DNA of 64,000 bases, from NCBI GenBank assembly GCA_005808505.1, contig SYLX01000215.1:1-64000 (forward strand), written 5' to 3'. The stretch comes from Bdellovibrionales bacterium. GTDB taxonomy: Bacteria > Bdellovibrionota > Bdellovibrionia > Bdellovibrionales > JAMPXM01. Position 1 is the stretch's first letter; every line of letters starts with the position of its first letter. Made by a program: the position numbers and the translations under genes. Below are positions 23,760 to 41,951 of this stretch, piece after piece. The notes under the pieces were generated by a model, which was not told where the DNA came from, did no database searches, and saw nothing but the letters and a program-made list of their open reading frames with translations.

Positions 23760-25922
23760 TCAGTCCGCTTTCTTAGATTTAACCGGTGGGTGACTCGAAT
23801 GAGGCGATCTTAAGAATTCAATGTAATCGCGAAGCGTGTGAAAGTCCTCGCGCTTATATCTCGTCGAATGCGAAGGCCGGTCGTCCCCTTCACGAGGATT
23901 TGGTGTATTTGAAAGTGCACAGGCTTCACGTTTGCCGGCTCGGCAGACTCCTCGCATGAGGGCGTAGCCGTAGTTTGTGTTTCCGTTCAGGAGAGCTTTA
24001 GTTGCCTCGCTCCAGCACTTCGCCGAAATCGTGAGGCAAAGCTCCGGGTCAATCGCGACATCCTTCTTATTCCAAAATGAGTTCACGTCATGTTCACGAA
24101 GCGATGGATCACTCATTTTAAACTCCGAGACTTGTCCGCTTGATGTATCCCAAATCCGCTTCGTCTCAGGGAGGTAGAACCATCGACCGTCTAAGGAAAG
24201 ACCAGCTGATCGTAAATCCCCTTCTTTTACGCAGAAGTAAGAACAGAACTTCGTCAGCTTTCCGGAAACAAGATCTGCATGGATGAGATCGTTGACATCA
24301 TTCATGAGTCCAACAGCGTATCGACCATCTTGACTAAAAACCGCCGACCGCAGACCGAGGTCCGAAGGAGATTTCGCAATCTCGGGTTTAAAGAACCGCG
24401 CATTCTTCGGATAGCCATAGGCGCTGTGTTCTATTTGAAGCTTTTGGAGACCTTCATCCCAAACGTACCAAGAGGGTGTTGGATTTCCTTCTGTCGTGGC
24501 CGTGAATGCAATCAGCTGGCCTCCGGGAGAGGACTGCAAACTATCAGGGTCAGCTGTCGAGAGGACCTTTTGATAATCAACTTTTTGAGCCTTACGATCC
24601 CAAATCACAAAACGCGGTGGCGTCTCGCCAACTAGGCCTGCAAATTTCTCTGCGGAAAGTCCAACAGGCGTTACGCTTAGAAGTCCTGGTTGAAACCAAC
24701 GACTGACAATTCGCTTCTCCTCAAGATCCCAAAGATCCGCAGAGACAAATTTATCGCCGTCACCCCACCCGTCGTCGCGAACAAAGAGCAGGAATCGGTC
24801 CGCCCAGACATGCGGCGGCCCCGCAAACTTTGCATTATATCCAGCTTCAAAAGATGCAAATAGAAGCTCTGACTTCGGCATTTCAAGTACAGCGAGCGCG
24901 TGGTTCAAGCTCACTACAATTTTAGTCTGCGAGTCCTTCCCTTTAGAGGCCTGTGAATTCGATTCTTTTTGCGCGGGCGGAACGGCGACCTCAATGACAT
25001 TAGCCACCTCGCGCGACTTATAAGTCTTCATCACCCAAAGAAAAATGTTCGTCGTAACGAGCGCCAAGCAGGCAGCGCCGACCAAGAAATTTTTTACGAC
25101 GCCTTTTCTCACCTTCGCGATGAGTTCGTCTTCCTTAACGTCGGAAACGAAATGCTCCGTAAGCGAGCTGATCTCGACGACCCCGTACCTATAAATCTGG
25201 TGATCTGAAGCCAGTTTTTTAGTTCCTCGGTAAAATTCTTCCGCGAGTGCTGTCGTGTAGCGGGCGAGATCGGAGGTTTGCGAAAATCTGAGTGCTGAGC
25301 CTTCCACGGAGCTTCCAAAAAGTTCGTAGTGGAAACTGCAGAGAGCCGCATCGCTGATGAGTGCTGGCGTTTCACCTTTGAAAAGGCCCCGAACGTAAAC
25401 GGGATGGCCAACTAAGAACGAGTGCTCGACGACCCTGAACTTCTTCGGATTTTGTTCGAGGGCCGGCAGCTTATCTTTTATCACTTCATTTCGAATCAAT
25501 TCGCGCTGTTGGGAATCAAGTTCCTCCCACATGAGAGTTTTTTGATTCTTCGGCTGCGACCTTAAGAATACGGAGTGCGCCATAACGTAGGCGGCGCCGC
25601 CTTTGTCGACGACGAAAAAAGGTAACCACTGCTCATCTTTCACCTTTTCTACCCAGGTCGTTCCTCCATTTTTCGTCTCGGTAGATTCTTCGACTCGAAG
25701 AATTCGGAAGATGGCCGGACCGCCGCGGAGAGTTTCGAATGGTTTTACAAGCGGCCACGCGAACCCCTCGAGTTCGACCCCGCCCACGGCAGCGGCCGAT
25801 GTCGTGGACCGCTCGGTATCCCCCACGAGGCGAGCGCGGCGGAAACTGAGATAAGCACGAACCACTTTGTAAGTACCGACGACGAAGAGAAAAATTCCGA
25901 TCGTCCAGCTCTCAAATAGCAC
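23760..25922 (-). CDS. GIDE/BAM-domain membrane protein fused to a propeller-like region
   Basis: The 720-residue protein opens with a transmembrane helix (6-26) and RRARLVGDTERST. A GIDE-like domain follows (about 30-180: VELEGFAWPLVKPFETLRGG, FFVVDKGGAAYV, KFRVVEHSFLVGHPVYVRGLF). A second membrane helix is at about 278-298. Residues about 360-620 contain repeated WD/propeller-like strands (FVIWDRK, SPGGQLIAFTATT, WYVWDEGL, FSQDGRYAVGLM, LSLDGRWFYLP). A Cys-rich Sel1-like end follows (MRGVCRAGKREACAL). GIDE domains occur in the eukaryotic mitochondrial ligase MULAN, but no RING finger is present here. It is paralogous to the gene at 32254-33465. The start is a GTG. Confidence 0.7.
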   Translation of the reverse strand: MLFESWTIGIFLFVVGTYKVVRAYLSFRRARLVGDTERSTTSAAAVGGVELEGFAWPLVKPFETLRGGPAIFRILRVEESTETKNGGTTWVEKVKDEQWLPFFVVDKGGAAYVMAHSVFLRSQPKNQKTLMWEELDSQQRELIRNEVIKDKLPALEQNPKKFRVVEHSFLVGHPVYVRGLFKGETPALISDAALCSFHYELFGSSVEGSALRFSQTSDLARYTTALAEEFYRGTKKLASDHQIYRYGVVEISSLTEHFVSDVKEDELIAKVRKGVVKNFLVGAACLALVTTNIFLWVMKTYKSREVANVIEVAVPPAQKESNSQASKGKDSQTKIVVSLNHALAVLEMPKSELLFASFEAGYNAKFAGPPHVWADRFLLFVRDDGWGDGDKFVSADLWDLEEKRIVSRWFQPGLLSVTPVGLSAEKFAGLVGETPPRFVIWDRKAQKVDYQKVLSTADPDSLQSSPGGQLIAFTATTEGNPTPSWYVWDEGLQKLQIEHSAYGYPKNARFFKPEIAKSPSDLGLRSAVFSQDGRYAVGLMNDVNDLIHADLVSGKLTKFCSYFCVKEGDLRSAGLSLDGRWFYLPETKRIWDTSSGQVSEFKMSDPSLREHDVNSFWNKKDVAIDPELCLTISAKCWSEATKALLNGNTNYGYALMRGVCRAGKREACALSNTPNPREGDDRPSHSTRYKREDFHTLRDYIEFLRSPHSSHPPVKSKKAD

Positions 25923-25982
25923 AACCTGCTCCGAGGATTTTGGGGGTAACCTTATGATAGATGATTTCTGGAGGCTTCACAC

Positions 25983-30165: not shown

Positions 30166-31830
30166 TTAGTGACCCGAAGCGCCTGCAGCGCCGATCCCAG
30201 TTTCTGAGCGAACGGATTGCGCGAGATATCCAGCGCGGTCACTTGCGGCTTGCTCACTTCGATCCGTAATCGAAACGAGCCAGATCATGAAAAACGCAAG
30301 CGGCATAGAAAACAGCGCAGGTGATGTATACGGGAACGGCGCACTCCCCGCTGGATTACCAAACGTAGCCTCCCAAACCGTCGGCGAGAGAATCGTGAGC
30401 CCCGTCGCTGCGATCAGACCGGCCCAACCGCCAACAAACATGCCTCGTGTTGTGCAGTTTTTCCAGAGAACGGATAGGAACAGAACGGGAAAGTTCGCCG
30501 AAGCCGCAACGGCGAACGCGAGCGACACCATGAAAGCGATGTTCTGCTTTTCGAAAACGATCCCCAGCAAAACCGCAATGATCCCCAGGACGATCGTCGT
30601 CGCGCGAGAGACCCGCAACTCCGCTTTAGAATCTGCATGACCTTTGCGAATCACCGTCGCGTAAAGATCGTGCGAGACTGCAGAGGCCCCCGACAATGTA
30701 AGTCCAGCAACGACAGCCAGAATCGTCGCGAATGCAACCGACGAAATGAAACCTAAGAAGACGTTTCCACCAACGGCATTAGCGAGGTGAACGGCTGCCA
30801 TATTGCTCCCGCCGATCAAGACTCCCTTGGCGTCAACAAACTGCGGGTTGTTCGAAACCAAAACGATCGCACCAAAACCGATGATGAACGTGAGGATGTA
30901 GAAGTAACCAATCCATGTCGTAGCCCAGAAAACGGATTTGCGAGCTTCCTTCGCGTCAGGCACGGTGAAGAATCGCATAAGTATGTGCGGTAAGCCCGCA
31001 GTTCCGAACATGAGCGCGAGACCAAACGAGAAAGTCGATATCGGATCTTTGACGAAATTCCCTGGAGCCATGATCGACTGGCCGTTGGCTCCGCCCTCGC
31101 TCTTCACCCTCACTGAATCGGCAAAGAGAGCTTCAAGAGAGAATCCGTATTTGAGTAAAACCATGAAGGCCATAAATGTTGCGCCCGAGAGCAGCAGACA
31201 TGCTTTGATGATCTGCACCAACGTCGTCGCCGTCATTCCACCGAAAAGAACATAGATCATCATCAAGATGCCGACGATCACGACGGCTACCCAATACTCA
31301 AGACCGAAGAGGAGTTTGATCAGCTGACCGGCCCCCACCATCTGCGCAATGAGGTAAAACAAGACGACAACTAAAGTTCCACCAGCCGCGAACCCCCGAA
31401 TAGGCGCCTGCTTGAAACGGTAAGAAGCAACGTCTGCAAAAGTGAACTTTCCTAGGTTCCGCAATCGTTCGGCCATGAGGAACGTCAGAAACGGCCAACC
31501 GACGAGAAATCCAATCGAGTAGATGAGTCCGTCAAAACCACTCGCCATAACGGCTGCGGAAATTCCGAGAAACGAAGCGGCCGACATAAAATCGCCAGCG
31601 ATCGCGAGACCGTTTTGAAATCCAGTGATGCCCCCACCCGCCGTATAAAAATCTGCAGCCGAGCGCGTGCGCGCCGCGGCCCACTTCGTAATCCACAAAG
31701 TAGCCGCAACAAAAACACCGAACATGATGATGGCGGTCCAATTGGTGGCTTGTTTCTCGAGTTGCCCGAGATCACCTGCCGCCATCGCCCGCGAGCCCAA
31801 TAAAAAGAGGATTGCTACGGAGTTTTTCAT
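30166..31830 (-). CDS. actP: Acetate-type sodium:solute symporter
   Basis: The 554-residue protein belongs to the sodium:solute symporter (SSS) family. It begins with a signal-like segment and has about 13 membrane helices. ActP-like features include [62 protein letters not shown] and [29 protein letters not shown]. ActP imports acetate and similar short carboxylates with a cation. It overlaps the upstream DUF485 gene by four bases (ATGA), the standard yjcH-actP arrangement, which supports the name. Confidence 0.9.
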
Positions 31831-32144
31831 TTCTGATGCTCCTTTACGATCTCAGCGGTCATTGCGTCGAACTCCGAGTTAGCACGGCGAACGTAGAATC
31901 CGGTGATTAGGACCGTGAACACGATCAAGCCAATGCCGACGGGGATACTCCAGGTGGTGACGCCGCTGCCGATGGGTTGCGCAAGCACTTCTTTCTTGAA
32001 AGCGACGAGGAAGAGGAAGCTGACATAGGCAAAGACCATCAATGCCGTTAACGTCCACGCAAAGCGCGAACGTGTCCGCACCAGAGTTTTGTACTTTTCA
32101 TCATTTATGATGCGAGTAACGAGTTCATCAGATGTGGCTTTCAC
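31827..32144 (-). CDS. yjcH: DUF485 inner-membrane protein (YjcH-like)
   Basis: The 105-residue protein has two transmembrane helices ([20 protein letters not shown] and [21 protein letters not shown]) and the conserved [12 protein letters not shown] end of DUF485. It is the usual partner of ActP, of unknown exact role, perhaps assembly or stability of the permease. The GTG at 32144 has GGAAGGAG six bases upstream and is preferred to an earlier TTG that adds a non-conserved extension. Confidence 0.88.
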
Positions 32145-32253
32145 GGCGACTCCTTCCGCTATCAAGCGTGGGATAACCGCTCCATTCTTCAAACGGAATC
32201 GTTGAGTCGCAAGCGTTATCTTCTAAAAGGATGAAGGAGAAATTCGCTCTAAA

Positions 32254-33465
32254 CTATTTCGAGCTAGGGGTCCGCTCATTCTTGTCGCAATAGCCACCTA
32301 ATTCGCAATATCGATAACGGTAGTATCGCTTGTTTTCTTCCGAGAGCTGATAGTCATCGGCCCTATCGAAAAGCGTGCCGCAATCGTCTTTGCTCCCGCG
32401 AACGCACGTATCATGTAGACGCTCAATATAAGCCTGACTTCCGAAGTCTTGCTTCTTCTTCGCATTCGTAAAGATATACCGCACGTCCTCAAGTGCTCCG
32501 ATCGTATTCGAAGGCGAGCAGCCCGCACCAGGACCGAAAATGAGCGTGGCTCCCATCGACAGGGAGACCAAGCCCACTCCCAGAAAGGCTTTGCTCTTAA
32601 ATTTCAAATCGCCGACGAGATGACGCTCGTGCTGGTTTGCTATGAAGAGTTTGTGTTCAATCGTAGAAGTCACCTGACCGCAGACTTGAAGAGACTCTTC
32701 GTTCGTACCTGGATTTTTTCGAGAGAGCATCGCAGCTTCGGTGTAGCCAGCTTGCTCTTCCTCTTTCGATACTTTTCCGTCGTTGTTCTTATCGAGGATA
32801 CGGGTGACGTCTTTAAGCCCCCCGGCTCCTGTGTTGAACACTTTGCTCCGAAAGCTCTGCAAACCCGCATCGATCACGATGAGGTCATCACTTGCTGCGG
32901 TGGAGAACGATCCCGCTACATAGAGCGGGGATCCAACTAGGAGAGATTTTTCGACGACACGAAACTTACCGCCGAATGTGATGCCCAAGATTTTGAGAGG
33001 ATTGCTATAGCCTTTTACTTTGTCGCCGACGAGAAGCTCAACGCTTTTTTTCTCCTTGTCACTCAGAGAAGTGTAGAGGCGTGCCTCACTACTCCCGATC
33101 TCAAATTCACCCATGATTGGATGAACCATCGCCAAACCGCTCACATCGACGACGTAGAAAGGATGAATGTGGTTGTAGCTGAATTCGGTTCGCCAGGTCT
33201 TTCGCTTGTTCTTACCGGAACCGGTTTCGACTTCTTTCTGAAGAGCGAACTCATAGTAGATGGCTTCTTGGTCCCGCAACGTTCTGAAGGTATCAGCCTT
33301 GGGCCAAGCGAAACCTTCAAATTCGGAATAACCCTGAGCCGCGGTCGCGATTTTTGAGCGAGGTGTATCTTCAACAAGACGAGCCCGCTTGCCTCGGCGG
33401 TAACCCTCATAACATCCGTATATTCCCGCGCAGGTCAGGAATATTACGACCTCAGCGGGCGGCAT
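32254..33465 (-). CDS. GIDE/BAM-domain membrane protein with an EF-hand loop
   Basis: The 403-residue protein has an N-terminal transmembrane helix (5-20) and RARLVEDTPRSKIATAAQGYSE. A GIDE-type domain (about 30-190) includes FEGFAWP, YNHIHPFYVVDVSGLAMV and FRVVEKSLLVGSPLYVAGSF. Residues 225-236 read D-K-N-N-D-G-K-V-S-K-E-E, a canonical EF-hand calcium loop. A second membrane helix is at 293-312, then a Cys-rich tail (CVRGSKDDC, CELGGYC). GIDE proteins lie near LemA in many bacteria, and the start codon here overlaps the stop of lemA. The topology would place the GIDE domain and EF loop on the same side of the membrane. Function is unknown. Confidence 0.75.
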   Translation of the reverse strand: MPPAEVVIFLTCAGIYGCYEGYRRGKRARLVEDTPRSKIATAAQGYSEFEGFAWPKADTFRTLRDQEAIYYEFALQKEVETGSGKNKRKTWRTEFSYNHIHPFYVVDVSGLAMVHPIMGEFEIGSSEARLYTSLSDKEKKSVELLVGDKVKGYSNPLKILGITFGGKFRVVEKSLLVGSPLYVAGSFSTAASDDLIVIDAGLQSFRSKVFNTGAGGLKDVTRILDKNNDGKVSKEEEQAGYTEAAMLSRKNPGTNEESLQVCGQVTSTIEHKLFIANQHERHLVGDLKFKSKAFLGVGLVSLSMGATLIFGPGAGCSPSNTIGALEDVRYIFTNAKKKQDFGSQAYIERLHDTCVRGSKDDCGTLFDRADDYQLSEENKRYYRYRYCELGGYCDKNERTPSSK

Positions 33466-34052
33466 TAAGCACCTTGGCCGAACTTAGGTAAATTCATCTT
33501 CAGGCTCGGCGCCACTTTCTCCGCTTCGCTGACTTGGTAAAGAGATTGCGCCTGATAATTGAGAATGCGTGCAGCAAAGACGTCAGGAAACTGCTCAATA
33601 CGTGTGTTGAAGTTCGTAACGGCTTCGTTGTAGGACTCGCGACGATCCGCAATCATGCCCTCGAGTTGAGAGACACGCGACTGGAGCTGGAGGAATTGCT
33701 GGTTAGCCTTCAACTCAGGGTACGCCTCGCCGATCGCGAAGATCCCTTTGAGTGCCATGCTCATCTCGTTCGAAGCCTGAATCTTTTCGTCGACCGTTTT
33801 TGATTGTCCGTAGTGGGATCTTGCTTCCGCGATCTTTTGGATCAAGCCCGCTTCGTAGTTCGCGTACTGTTCGATGACTTGAATGAGCTGCGGAATCTCG
33901 TCAAAACGTTGTTTGAGGATGACGTCGATGTTCGCCCAAGCGCGTTGCACCTGATTCTTCAAACGGACGAGGCCGTTGTAGATCCCGATGCCCATGACGA
34001 TCAATCCGGCCAAGATAAAAAGAACGAAAGTCATGGTGAAAACAGAAAGCAT
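33465..34052 (-). CDS. lemA: LemA family protein
   Basis: The 195-residue protein has one N-terminal membrane helix (MTFVLFILAGLIVMGIGIYNGL). The LemA helical bundle follows, with RLKNQVQRAWANIDVILKQRFDEIPQLIQVIEQYANYE and the later YNEAVTNFNTRIEQFPDVFAA. LemA proteins span the envelope with unknown biochemical role. A GGAG site precedes the ATG. The downstream GIDE gene overlaps the stop by one base, so the two are translationally coupled. A short 2TM gene and a DoxX gene lie upstream on the same strand. Confidence 0.93.
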   Translation of the reverse strand: MLSVFTMTFVLFILAGLIVMGIGIYNGLVRLKNQVQRAWANIDVILKQRFDEIPQLIQVIEQYANYEAGLIQKIAEARSHYGQSKTVDEKIQASNEMSMALKGIFAIGEAYPELKANQQFLQLQSRVSQLEGMIADRRESYNEAVTNFNTRIEQFPDVFAARILNYQAQSLYQVSEAEKVAPSLKMNLPKFGQGA

Positions 34053-38359: not shown

Positions 38360-39310
38360 CTAAAGTGCACCGTAGGCTCTCGCCATTGCATCGCGTGTGG
38401 TTTTGTCGGGAAGTTTTCCGCGTCCTGCTGCCATGTTCTCCCGGAGGTGTTCGGTCTTTGAAGTTGCCGGGATCGCGCAGGTGATCGCCGGGTGCGAGAC
38501 AATAAATTTGAGAAGAAATTCAGCCCAGGTTTTGCAATCGAAAGCTTCGGCTACCGCGGGCAAGGGCTTCCCTTTTAGGCGGCGTATCAGCGTCCCGCCT
38601 TGATAGGGGCGATTTGCAATAACCGCGATCTTCTTCTCAATGGCGAGTGGAAGAATCTTCTGCTCGACCTCTCGATCTTCAATGTTGTAGGTGAGCTGAA
38701 CGAAATCAATCGGTTGAGACTTCATAATCTTCTCAAGCTCATCGTGGCGTCGGCCGTGAGATGTCGTTACACCTACATAGGCGAGTTCGCCTTTTTCCTT
38801 CATCTTGAAGAGTGTTTTGAGGTGGTCCTCCCAAGCATCAAGATTGTGAACTTGAAAGAGATCAAACTTTTTGATTCCCCAAAGCCGTTGGGAATCCGCA
38901 ATTTGTTCCAAACCTTCTTTCGCCGATGAAGTCCAAACTTTCGTCGCTGAGAAAAGGCTCTTTGGATGATCCAGCTTCGAAAGGGCGTACCCGATGACCT
39001 CCTCGGACGAACCGTACATCGGAGATGAATCGACAATGCGACCACCGAGCGATAAAAACTCACGAAGAACCTCGGTGCGTTGATCGCGAAGGCCTTTATT
39101 GTTACCAACATTAAAGGTGATCCACGTTCCGAGTCCAATGACCGGAAGTTCGAGACCAGTCGACGGAATTTTTTTAGCCAGCAGAGAAGAGGTCTTAGCT
39201 AACTCTTTTTCGCTCGGCTTCTTTTGCGCCGAAGCCCTTTGCAAAGGAAGCCCGGTTGCAAGAGAAGCCAAGATTAACGACTTTAGGAAGTCCCGTCGAT
39301 CTGCTTGCAT
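38360..39310 (-). CDS. Tat-exported aldo/keto reductase
   Basis: The 316-residue protein starts with a twin-arginine signal (DRRDFLKSLILASLATGLPL) and continues as an aldo/keto reductase. It has IGLGTWITFNVG, then VDSSPMYGSSEEVIGYALS with the Asp and Tyr, SATKVW with the Lys and DLFQVHNLD with the His. Tat export implies a periplasmic enzyme folded with its cofactor. GGAGATGGG precedes the ATG. It is between a RibD-like gene (13 bases upstream) and DUF6064 (5 bases downstream). Confidence 0.9.
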   Translation of the reverse strand: MQADRRDFLKSLILASLATGLPLQRASAQKKPSEKELAKTSSLLAKKIPSTGLELPVIGLGTWITFNVGNNKGLRDQRTEVLREFLSLGGRIVDSSPMYGSSEEVIGYALSKLDHPKSLFSATKVWTSSAKEGLEQIADSQRLWGIKKFDLFQVHNLDAWEDHLKTLFKMKEKGELAYVGVTTSHGRRHDELEKIMKSQPIDFVQLTYNIEDREVEQKILPLAIEKKIAVIANRPYQGGTLIRRLKGKPLPAVAEAFDCKTWAEFLLKFIVSHPAITCAIPATSKTEHLRENMAAGRGKLPDKTTRDAMARAYGAL

Positions 39311-39323
39311 CCCATCTCCCCGA

Positions 39324-40007
39324 TCAATGCTTTACGGAGTAGCGAACCCAGAGAACGCCGCCATCTAATCGCTTCACCGACTTCAGCTGAAGTTTCTTCG
39401 GAATCATTTTGCCTTTGGCTCCATCCGTTTCGAAGACCGTCGGACCATCCATCGTTCCGTCAGCAACCGGCATCACGATGTGACTGAACTCATCGATGAG
39501 CCCCGCTTTTAGGAAGGAGCCGTTGACGTGGCCTCCACCGTCGATGCGTGCTTTCTTGATCCCGAAGAGTTTGCGCAATTTCGTAAGCGCTAACTCGAGA
39601 TCGATCTCTTTCCTGCCGGCGAAAATGTAAGACACTTGCTTCTCACGTAAGTGATGAAGGTAGGCATCCGAAACTTTCTCGGTCAGAACTTCAATCGCAT
39701 GTTCTGTGTCCACCATGTTCTTATCCCAGAAGCACTTTCCGCTCGGGTCAATTCCGACCGCGTAAGTCTTGGTCTTGTGCTCACCAACGAAGTCCGTACG
39801 CGGAAGCTTCGACACCCGCGTCTGAAGTTTATGTTTTCGTGGGCTACAGAATTCTTGCATCGTGGTGCGCCCGACGATCCAAGCATCGACTTTGATTTTT
39901 GAAGCGGGTTTTTCAAAGTACTGAGCAGGATTCTTAAAGCCCCAACGATCGCCGAGGATGCGGCCGTCGACGGAGCTCATGGAATGACAAATGACATAAG
40001 GTCTCAT
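39324..40007 (-). CDS. RibD C-terminal/dihydrofolate reductase-like protein
   Basis: The 227-residue protein matches the RibD C-terminal reductase superfamily: YVICHSMSSVDGRILGDRWGF, then DAWIVGRTTMQEF, KARIDGGGHVNGSFLKAGLIDEFSHIVMPV. These proteins are NADPH-dependent reductases related to dihydrofolate reductase, with undefined substrates outside riboflavin synthesis. AAGGAGG precedes the ATG. It starts 84 bases after DUF2239 on the same strand. Confidence 0.88.
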   Translation of the reverse strand: MRPYVICHSMSSVDGRILGDRWGFKNPAQYFEKPASKIKVDAWIVGRTTMQEFCSPRKHKLQTRVSKLPRTDFVGEHKTKTYAVGIDPSGKCFWDKNMVDTEHAIEVLTEKVSDAYLHHLREKQVSYIFAGRKEIDLELALTKLRKLFGIKKARIDGGGHVNGSFLKAGLIDEFSHIVMPVADGTMDGPTVFETDGAKGKMIPKKLQLKSVKRLDGGVLWVRYSVKH

Positions 40008-40091
40008 CGTGAAAACCTCCTTGCGACTCGAGTTTAGAGATCACAGGGAGGCCGTCAAGACGCACATCAGGGTGACGCCCAAAGAGCTGAT

Positions 40092-40673
40092 TCAGAGCTG
40101 AGCTAACTTCGACGCATGCTCGCGAATATCTTTCGGCCAATCTTGCAGGAGCTTTCCAAACTTCTTCGCATCGTTTGCATAAAGCGCACGAAGAGCCTCT
40201 TCGTAATTAGGCAAGTCTCCACCCATGACCGTCATGAACTTGTAAGCTGCATCTTGAGCTTGGCGAAGTTCATCCTTAGCCGCATTTTTCTTTTTCGCAG
40301 CATCGACGAGCCGCCGGAGGGTGACGGACGCGCCACCCGGCTGACGTGAAAGCCAATCCCAATGATCTGGAAGTAACGTGACTTCTTTGGCAACCACGCC
40401 GAGCTTGGGCCGACCTGGTCCCGTCTTCTTTTCAATCTCAGCTTCAGCGTCGGGAGATCGAAGTGCTTCGAGCCTTTTAACGACTGCGTCTTTCGTTCCG
40501 CGAAGGTCCAACTCCACTTGCTGACTCGTGCGATCGTCGAAAACGAGAATCGAAGCCTTTGCATCTTTCGCGAGATGATCTTTGATCTTGAGAGCCACAT
40601 CGATCATCGTGCCGCTTGCAATCTTCTTTGTTCCGGCAAACGCCGTGCACTTGCTATCGGGGTTATAATTCAT
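40092..40673 (-). CDS. DUF2239 family protein
   Basis: The 193-residue cytoplasmic protein has all the DUF2239 features: CTAFAGTKKIASGT, ILVFDDRTSQQVELDLRGT, GRPKLGVVAKEVTLLPDHWDWLSRQPGGASVTLRRLVD and the C-terminal helical AYKFMTVMGGDLPNYEEALRALYAND. Function is unknown. The GRPKLGVVAKEVTLLP segment resembles a small DNA-binding or recognition stretch, an impression only. AGGAG precedes the ATG. The gene starts 15 bases after the MFS stop, so it belongs to that transcript. Confidence 0.9.
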   Translation of the reverse strand: MNYNPDSKCTAFAGTKKIASGTMIDVALKIKDHLAKDAKASILVFDDRTSQQVELDLRGTKDAVVKRLEALRSPDAEAEIEKKTGPGRPKLGVVAKEVTLLPDHWDWLSRQPGGASVTLRRLVDAAKKKNAAKDELRQAQDAAYKFMTVMGGDLPNYEEALRALYANDAKKFGKLLQDWPKDIREHASKLAQL

Positions 40674-40688
40674 AGCTAAACTCCTGAA

Positions 40689-41951
40689 TCAGTGGCTCGT
40701 GCTGCCGTCCGCTTGCGTTGCGCGAGGTGCTTCCGGAATCGATCGGTGAATTCTCCACATCATGAAAAGCGTAACGAAAGCCGTCCCCAACACCACGTAG
40801 CCAACAATTTCAAATCGATGCAACTCCCCGCCTGGACCCACGATAACGATCAATCCCGCAAGAACCGATGCAAAGCCGCCCGCGATTTGCTGAAGCGAAG
40901 AGCTCACCGACATGAAGGCCCCACGATTTGCGGGCGTTGGAATCGCCGACATGAGTGTCTGTGAGGGAATCATGCGCGAGAATACGCCCACGAACATCAC
41001 AACGTTGATCAAGATGACACCCAGAAGCGGTGTCACACCCATATGCGTATACGTAAACACGGTGACGATACTGACAAGGGTCCCCACGGTAAAGGTTCGG
41101 AAACTTCCAAACTTATCGCAAGCTCGCCCTACTAAAGGACCAATGGCGATCGAAGCAAGGCCGGTGATCAGGTAGATGAGCGGAAGCTTATCCACATTGA
41201 TCCCCAAGTTATGCACAGTGAACACATTCCCGAACGGCATCAACATGAAGCCACCGATCGATAAAAGTGCTGTCGCCGAGAAGGCTAAAACGTGCCGTGG
41301 AATCGAAACGGTTGCGAGCAGATGTCGGAACGGACTTTTCTCGGCCTTTATTTTCAAGTGCTCATCGACCGGCCTCAGGCGCGTGAAAATGACGACCCCA
41401 ACGATGACGCTAACAATGACGATCATTATGAATGGCGCGTGCCAACCCATTAAGTTCGTTATGAACAACCCCGCCGGCAAGCCAAGAATTTGGCTCGCGG
41501 CAAAGGCTGTCTGCATAAAACCCATCACGCGACCGCGCTGTTCGAGGGGAAACAAATCCGTTACGATGGCAAACACGATGGCGCCGATCACGCCTCCGAA
41601 GAGCCCAGTCACGATCCTTGCGGCTACGAGCATCTCGTATGTGTTTGCAAGACCGCAGAAAAGCGTACCGAGCACAAACCCAATGTAAAAGAACATGAGA
41701 AGCTTTTTGCGATCGTATCGATCCGCAAATCCGGCCGCGAGAATTCCCGCAATACCTGCACTGAACGCGTAAGCGGAAACGACGATTCCAAATTGTGCCG
41801 CCGTCATGTTCAAAGCCGGCATCATCATCGGCCCGAGCGGCGATACGATCATAAAGTCGAGGATGATCGTGAACTGCAGGAACGCAAGAACCGCGATGAC
41901 GAACTTTTGGTAACCCGTAAAGGGCAAGGGGGTGCGAGTGGATTCTTTCAT
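40689..41951 (-). CDS. MFS drug-efflux-type transporter
   Basis: The 420-residue transporter has twelve predicted helices. Major-facilitator motifs include DFMIVSPLGPMMMPALNMTAAQFG, FADRYDRKKLLMFFYIGFVLG (motif A) and LPLIYLITGLASIAIGPLVGRACDKFGSFRTF. It resembles the AraJ/Bcr-type drug:H+ antiporters. It heads a block that includes DUF2239, RibD-like, AKR and DUF6064 genes. Its promoter region has clear operator palindromes. Confidence 0.92.
   Translation of the reverse strand: MKESTRTPLPFTGYQKFVIAVLAFLQFTIILDFMIVSPLGPMMMPALNMTAAQFGIVVSAYAFSAGIAGILAAGFADRYDRKKLLMFFYIGFVLGTLFCGLANTYEMLVAARIVTGLFGGVIGAIVFAIVTDLFPLEQRGRVMGFMQTAFAASQILGLPAGLFITNLMGWHAPFIMIVIVSVIVGVVIFTRLRPVDEHLKIKAEKSPFRHLLATVSIPRHVLAFSATALLSIGGFMLMPFGNVFTVHNLGINVDKLPLIYLITGLASIAIGPLVGRACDKFGSFRTFTVGTLVSIVTVFTYTHMGVTPLLGVILINVVMFVGVFSRMIPSQTLMSAIPTPANRGAFMSVSSSLQQIAGGFASVLAGLIVIVGPGGELHRFEIVGYVVLGTAFVTLFMMWRIHRSIPEAPRATQADGSTSH

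Follow-up and report, generated by a model that had tools for sequence, protein, structure and literature searches.

The gene at 23760–25922 of the window (the 64,000-nucleotide stretch of Bdellovibrionales contig SYLX01000215.1 analysed here) encodes P0001, a genuine, rare and novel form of bacterial GIDE protein in which a membrane-bound GIDE half is followed by propeller-like repeats and a Cys-paired tail (Table 1). An earlier note had drawn attention to this 720-residue open reading frame, which is present on the minus strand as described. Homology searching with the full architecture, a check which the note had proposed, returned a single full-length ortholog in G129, a genome from another family of the same order (CANEZP010000006.1; E=7.4e-141 over residues 2–709). 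The two proteins are 37% identical overall, propeller-like region and tail included, and have the same architecture; the fusion is real, and is conserved at full length. Judged from sequence, the architecture is very probably that of a GIDE domain combined with a propeller. A record of such a fusion was not found in the literature searched, which does not in itself prove absence.

Table 1. Parts of P0001 and the nearby lemA-linked GIDE pair (positions in the window)
Feature	Position	Strand	Basis and remarks
P0001, whole gene, TM–GIDE–TM–propeller-like–Cys tail	23760..25922	(-)	720 aa, GTG start, full-length ortholog
Ribosome-binding-like GGAG motif	25929..25932	(-)	6 nt upstream of P0001 GTG; putative, from sequence
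First membrane helix (TM1), ~residues 5–23, then positive SFRRAR	25854..25910	(-)	predicted from hydropathy and flank charges
GIDE (BAM) domain, ~residues 31–272	25107..25832	(-)	19-protein GIDE profile and alignment
Degenerate EF-hand counterpart, ~residues 205–245	25188..25310	(-)	alignment with P0002 and paralogs
Second membrane helix (TM2), ~residues 275–298	25029..25100	(-)	hydropathy
Propeller-like region, residues 333–603	24114..24926	(-)	blade profile, controls, low-confidence all-beta model
Blade-like repeat 1, residues 370–412	24687..24815	(-)	blade profile
Blade-like repeat 2, residues 417–454	24561..24674	(-)	blade profile
Blade-like repeat 3, residues 459–499	24426..24548	(-)	blade profile
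Blade-like repeat 4, residues 524–562	24237..24353	(-)	blade profile; includes C560, with C564 just after
Blade-like repeat 5, residues 570–603	24114..24215	(-)	blade profile
Cys-paired Sel1-like tail, residues 625–672 (C629/C636, C660/C668)	23907..24050	(-)	Cys kept in ortholog
Conserved C-terminal extension, residues 673–720	23763..23906	(-)	PREGDxRP...KREDF.TL..YI.FL.SP; ortholog alignment
P0002, LemA-linked GIDE paralog	32254..33465	(-)	403 aa, EF-hand, Cys tail; profile and Pfam
LemA, partner gene of P0002	33465..34052	(-)	Pfam PF04011, E=3.1e-45

GIDE family membership and membrane topology

By profile and alignment, P0001 is a true GIDE-family protein. The motifs which the earlier note had found to be common to P0001 and its neighbouring paralog P0002 are literally so: RARLVGDTERS in the former corresponds to RARLVEDTPRS in the latter, EGFAWP is identical in both, and KFRVVEHSFLVGHPVYVRGLF in P0001 corresponds to KFRVVEKSLLVGSPLYVAGSF in P0002. 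A whole-genome search matched the two proteins at E=1.4e-23 over residues 8–208, and P0001 was found at E=1.2e-45 over residues 7–289 by a profile of 19 other GIDE proteins, from which P0001 and its ortholog had been left out; the likeness is therefore far above chance, and the profile upholds the earlier assignment of the N-terminal part to GIDE. Searching of the own genome also matched P0001 to a third paralog on another contig (E=3.5e-23), the matches to both paralogs being confined to residues 8–209. The columns that are invariant in the GIDE family (G47, E50, G53, W90, G109, R163 and G179) are all retained in P0001. The Pfam GIDE model, PF12483, matched 19 of the 21 aligned family members, with a best E of 3.4e-14; direct Pfam scanning of P0001 gave no GIDE match, and the model reached the G129 ortholog weakly (E=0.016).

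Hydropathy analysis indicates that the GIDE domain of P0001 is flanked by two membrane helices, the first being judged from the ortholog, in which both helices are clear; in P0001 itself TM2 was detected and TM1 fell below the cut-off used. The GTG start of P0001 coincides in the alignment with the ortholog's ATG, and scanning for a promoter and terminator gave no signal above shuffles. A paired-Cys tail, noted earlier as Cys-rich, is present in both P0001 and P0002, and that of P0001 resembles the tails of P0002, the paralogs and LemA-linked GIDE proteins; its likeness to Sel1 was recognised by eye, and the Pfam scan was without match. However, the propeller-like strands do not stand "in place of the EF-hand", as the note had put it, since the EF-hand of P0002 (residues 222–236) comes before the second membrane helix, and the extra block of P0001 sits after that helix and before the Cys tail. 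Indeed, alignment indicates that P0001 retains the equivalent stretch in degenerated form, with the residues of the Ca-loop lost, and the Pfam scan found no EF-hand match in the protein.

In most family members the flanks of TM1 are neutral or negative before the helix and positive after it, and from this charge bias the GIDE domain is predicted to be cytoplasmic and the C-terminus to lie outside. The GIDE domain of P0001 thus most likely lies on the cytoplasmic side, while the charge bias and the placement of Cys residues make it probable that the C-terminal half is periplasmic. Cys density is 4.4-fold higher in the tails than in the GIDE portions of the proteins (p=8e-8, a significance overstated by the non-independence of related proteins), and all six Cys residues in the C-terminal half of P0001 are kept in the ortholog as pairs; disulfides probably form in the Cys-paired tail. 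The C-terminal PDZ of the third paralog has GspC as its best NCBIfam match (E=0.0012, below the GspC cut-off), the PDZ of GspC being a periplasmic domain. An arrangement of the opposite sense, with GIDE in the periplasm and the propeller and tail forming a WD40-type scaffold for cytoplasmic partners, would accord with human MAPL, whose BAM domain lies in the intermembrane space (PMC4457424), so that the analogy argues for inverted topology in P0001. It would also accord with intracellular WD40 proteins being the closest sequence matches of the region, and with the positive residues that follow TM2 too in P0001 and its ortholog. It appears unlikely, however, in view of the positive-inside charge distribution that most of the family shows at TM1, the concentration of conserved paired Cys in the tails, the GspC-like PDZ in a paralog tail, and the occurrence of TolB among the structural neighbours of a low-confidence model described below.

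The strand-rich C-terminal region

Five blade-like repeats of 34–43 residues each tile most of P0001 residues 370–603, with a spacing of 42–47 residues, one insertion excepted. The repeats were delimited by eye, which favours a match. A blade profile constructed from the five internal repeats of P0001 and its ortholog, when run against the PDB, found WD40 propellers at E=1.9e-38, and the 60 matches listed were all WD40 or other propellers by name, with one "dynein tail" chain counted as a propeller by inference. Negative controls, in which the repeat segments were reversed or segments were cut from the GIDE half, found nothing comparable. An unbiased two-sequence profile of the whole region ranked WD40 proteins first, but only at E=0.046 or worse, and leave-one-blade-out scores were mostly no higher than those of shuffles; both results count against a propeller. 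The Pfam scan of the propeller-like region of P0001 gave no family match; two of the three sub-threshold Pfam matches of the ortholog were WD-type propeller families.

Full-length AlphaFold prediction with the two-sequence alignment gave a pLDDT of 34. Prediction of the propeller part alone, as had been suggested in the earlier note, yielded an all-beta model that is not closed (pLDDT 44, pTM 0.33), for which the Foldseek neighbours were almost all propellers, comprising TolB and WD40 proteins; at TM-scores of ~0.15, it is local strand patterns alone that match. Since the predicted structures are too poor to decide, neither bearing out nor refuting the propeller of the note, assignment of a propeller fold draws entirely on sequence signatures. 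The propeller-like strands placed after TM2 by the earlier note have thus gained a blade profile with negative controls, while the fold itself is not confirmed. By these signatures, the identity of the C-terminal ~270 residues as WD40/TolB-type propeller-like repeats is strongly indicated. That the region is instead an unclosed all-beta domain, such as a solenoid or a beta-sandwich, whose likeness to WD repeats is one of composition only, is improbable: the poor quality of both predictions, the want of a Pfam family match and the weak leave-one-out repeats would be in keeping with such a structure, whereas the specificity of the repeat profile for propellers with both controls negative, the regular repeat spacing and the WD-type Pfam matches of the ortholog argue for propeller-like repeats.

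Ortholog, rarity and origin

Because a full-length ortholog with the same architecture exists in another family, chimerism and mis-assembly are rejected as explanations of P0001. The draft genome that contains the window consists of 269 contigs, and its contamination is estimated at 7.13%, but the occurrence of this architecture in an independent genome, with similarity that continues across the junction between GIDE and C-terminal region, leaves only the slightest likelihood that two unrelated genes were fused artefactually in one open reading frame. Among the 369 genomes searched from the phylum, two contain a full-length homolog, and a search with just the C-terminal region gave the same two; a search of genome contigs returned only the G129 ortholog, and viral contigs and plasmids yielded no further homologs. 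In the tree, P0001 and the ortholog form a clade with 100/99 support, and a clade of the genome's three paralogs, as would follow from recent local duplication of P0002, was rejected (AU p=0.0015); phylogenetically, P0001 is therefore an old paralog rather than a recent copy of its neighbour.

Proposed role and gene neighbourhood

The GIDE domain is known from the mitochondrial ubiquitin ligase MUL1 (also MAPL or MULAN). In MAPL, two membrane helices flank the GIDE/BAM domain and a separate C-terminal domain follows the second helix (PMC4457424). P0001 likewise has the order helix–GIDE–helix–other domain; the difference lies in the last element, since the eukaryotic proteins carry a RING where P0001 has its propeller-like region with the Cys tail. 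The MAPL study found no RING in prokaryotic BAM proteins (PMC4457424); the Pfam scan of P0001 gave no RING match, and its Cys residues occur in widely spaced pairs rather than in the RING pattern. With P0002 and related LemA-linked bacterial GIDE proteins, P0001 shares its N-terminal half and motifs, and its Cys-paired Sel1-like tail is also found in several LemA-linked proteins of the order, but it differs in having a degenerate EF-hand, in not being encoded beside lemA, and in the insertion between TM2 and the tail of a further ~300 residues that bear the propeller-like repeats. The third paralog (761 aa) also combines GIDE with a long Cys-rich tail, of ~440 residues, although it is LemA-linked, and its tail comprises Sel1-like repeats and the GspC-like PDZ, with no propeller. 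The blade-like repeats match the WD40 signature, and TolB and WD40 proteins are the Foldseek neighbours of the low-confidence model, but P0001, with its unconfirmed fold, is tethered to the membrane via GIDE and is not detectably TolB by sequence, in which it differs from TolB and other periplasmic propellers.

The explanation that best accommodates the whole, and that is somewhat favoured here, is that P0001 is an inner-membrane GIDE platform displaying a periplasmic propeller. The GIDE domain, flanked by its two helices, would be apposed to the membrane, most likely at its cytoplasmic face; the WD40/TolB-type propeller would be displayed after TM2, most likely in the periplasm, and would be followed by the disulfide-paired Sel1-like tail. 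By analogy with periplasmic propellers such as TolB, the propeller would probably be a ligand- or partner-binding module, and the GIDE domain would couple the state of that module to partners in the membrane. These would probably be LemA-family proteins from other loci of the genome, a coupling inferred from the lemA–GIDE gene pairs of P0001 relatives; as a mechanism, the binding module is put forward tentatively. A broader proposal, that GIDE in this order serves as a transmembrane platform on which the periplasmic module is interchangeable, being a simple Cys tail, a tail of the Sel1/PDZ kind or a propeller, in parallel with the RING of eukaryotic MAPL at the same position, is possible albeit rather doubtful. 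If true, GIDE would have served ancestrally to link a state close to the membrane with the module, of whichever kind, that comes after TM2; the MAPL literature describes the original function of GIDE/BAM as an open question (PMC4457424). The three GIDE proteins of one genome, with a common membrane–GIDE half and different domains after TM2, would provide a comparison set bearing on the job of the GIDE half and on the modules coupled to it. The general weight of the case is limited by the rarity of the propeller version.

Most GIDE genes of the phylum are adjoined by lemA. The lemA beside P0002 is ~7.5 kb from P0001, and none was found near P0001, its G129 ortholog or a 747-aa GIDE protein of G086; a fourth GIDE gene without lemA, that of G001, is truncated where its contig stops. 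Tails of more than 300 residues occur in three of the six GIDE proteins without a neighbouring lemA versus one of the 25 with it (Fisher p=0.016, in a sample that is small and uneven in its phylogenetic coverage). The lemA genes form two groups, and G086 and G001 carry only the group that is not linked to GIDE. The neighbours of P0001 are a convergent MATE gene and a divergent gene for a small secreted protein (224 aa), of which G129 has no homolog; P0001 and its ortholog have no conserved partner gene next to them, which counts against the proposed role.

The G086 protein (L028 7821-10064 (+)) is strand-rich, and its Cys spacing (C-x2/3-C, C-x6-C, C-x7-C) is like that of P0001. No sequence homology of its strand-rich region to the P0001 propeller was detected, the profile score being no higher than those of shuffles and BLAST giving no significant match, and a single clade of the GIDE parts of the two proteins was neither shown nor rejected (p=0.18). 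The G001 gene (L029 6835-7875 (+)), from a genome of the same family as the window genome, runs off its contig shortly after TM2 and may be a long version. In G108, the GIDE gene is divided into two adjacent open reading frames (L013 1471-2852 (+)).

Within the window, lemA, GIDE, DUF485 and sodium:solute symporter genes lie consecutively on one strand (30166-34052 (-)) and may form an operon. The gene for the third GIDE protein (L004 5514-7799 (+), equivalent to G000:C193 ~38513-40798) adjoins lemA, and its product carries an EF-hand in addition to the Sel1-like Cys repeats and the PDZ; the genome has yet another lemA-like gene, its third, at G000:C116:17920-18507, which contains one in-frame TAA. 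Homologous prepilin-like genes occur near the third paralog (L004 1321-3775) and near the G129 ortholog (L027 1536-4101). Convergent with that ortholog is a gene for a secreted-looking 464-aa protein without a Pfam match, which bears an HELRH motif (L027 12094-13488 (-)).
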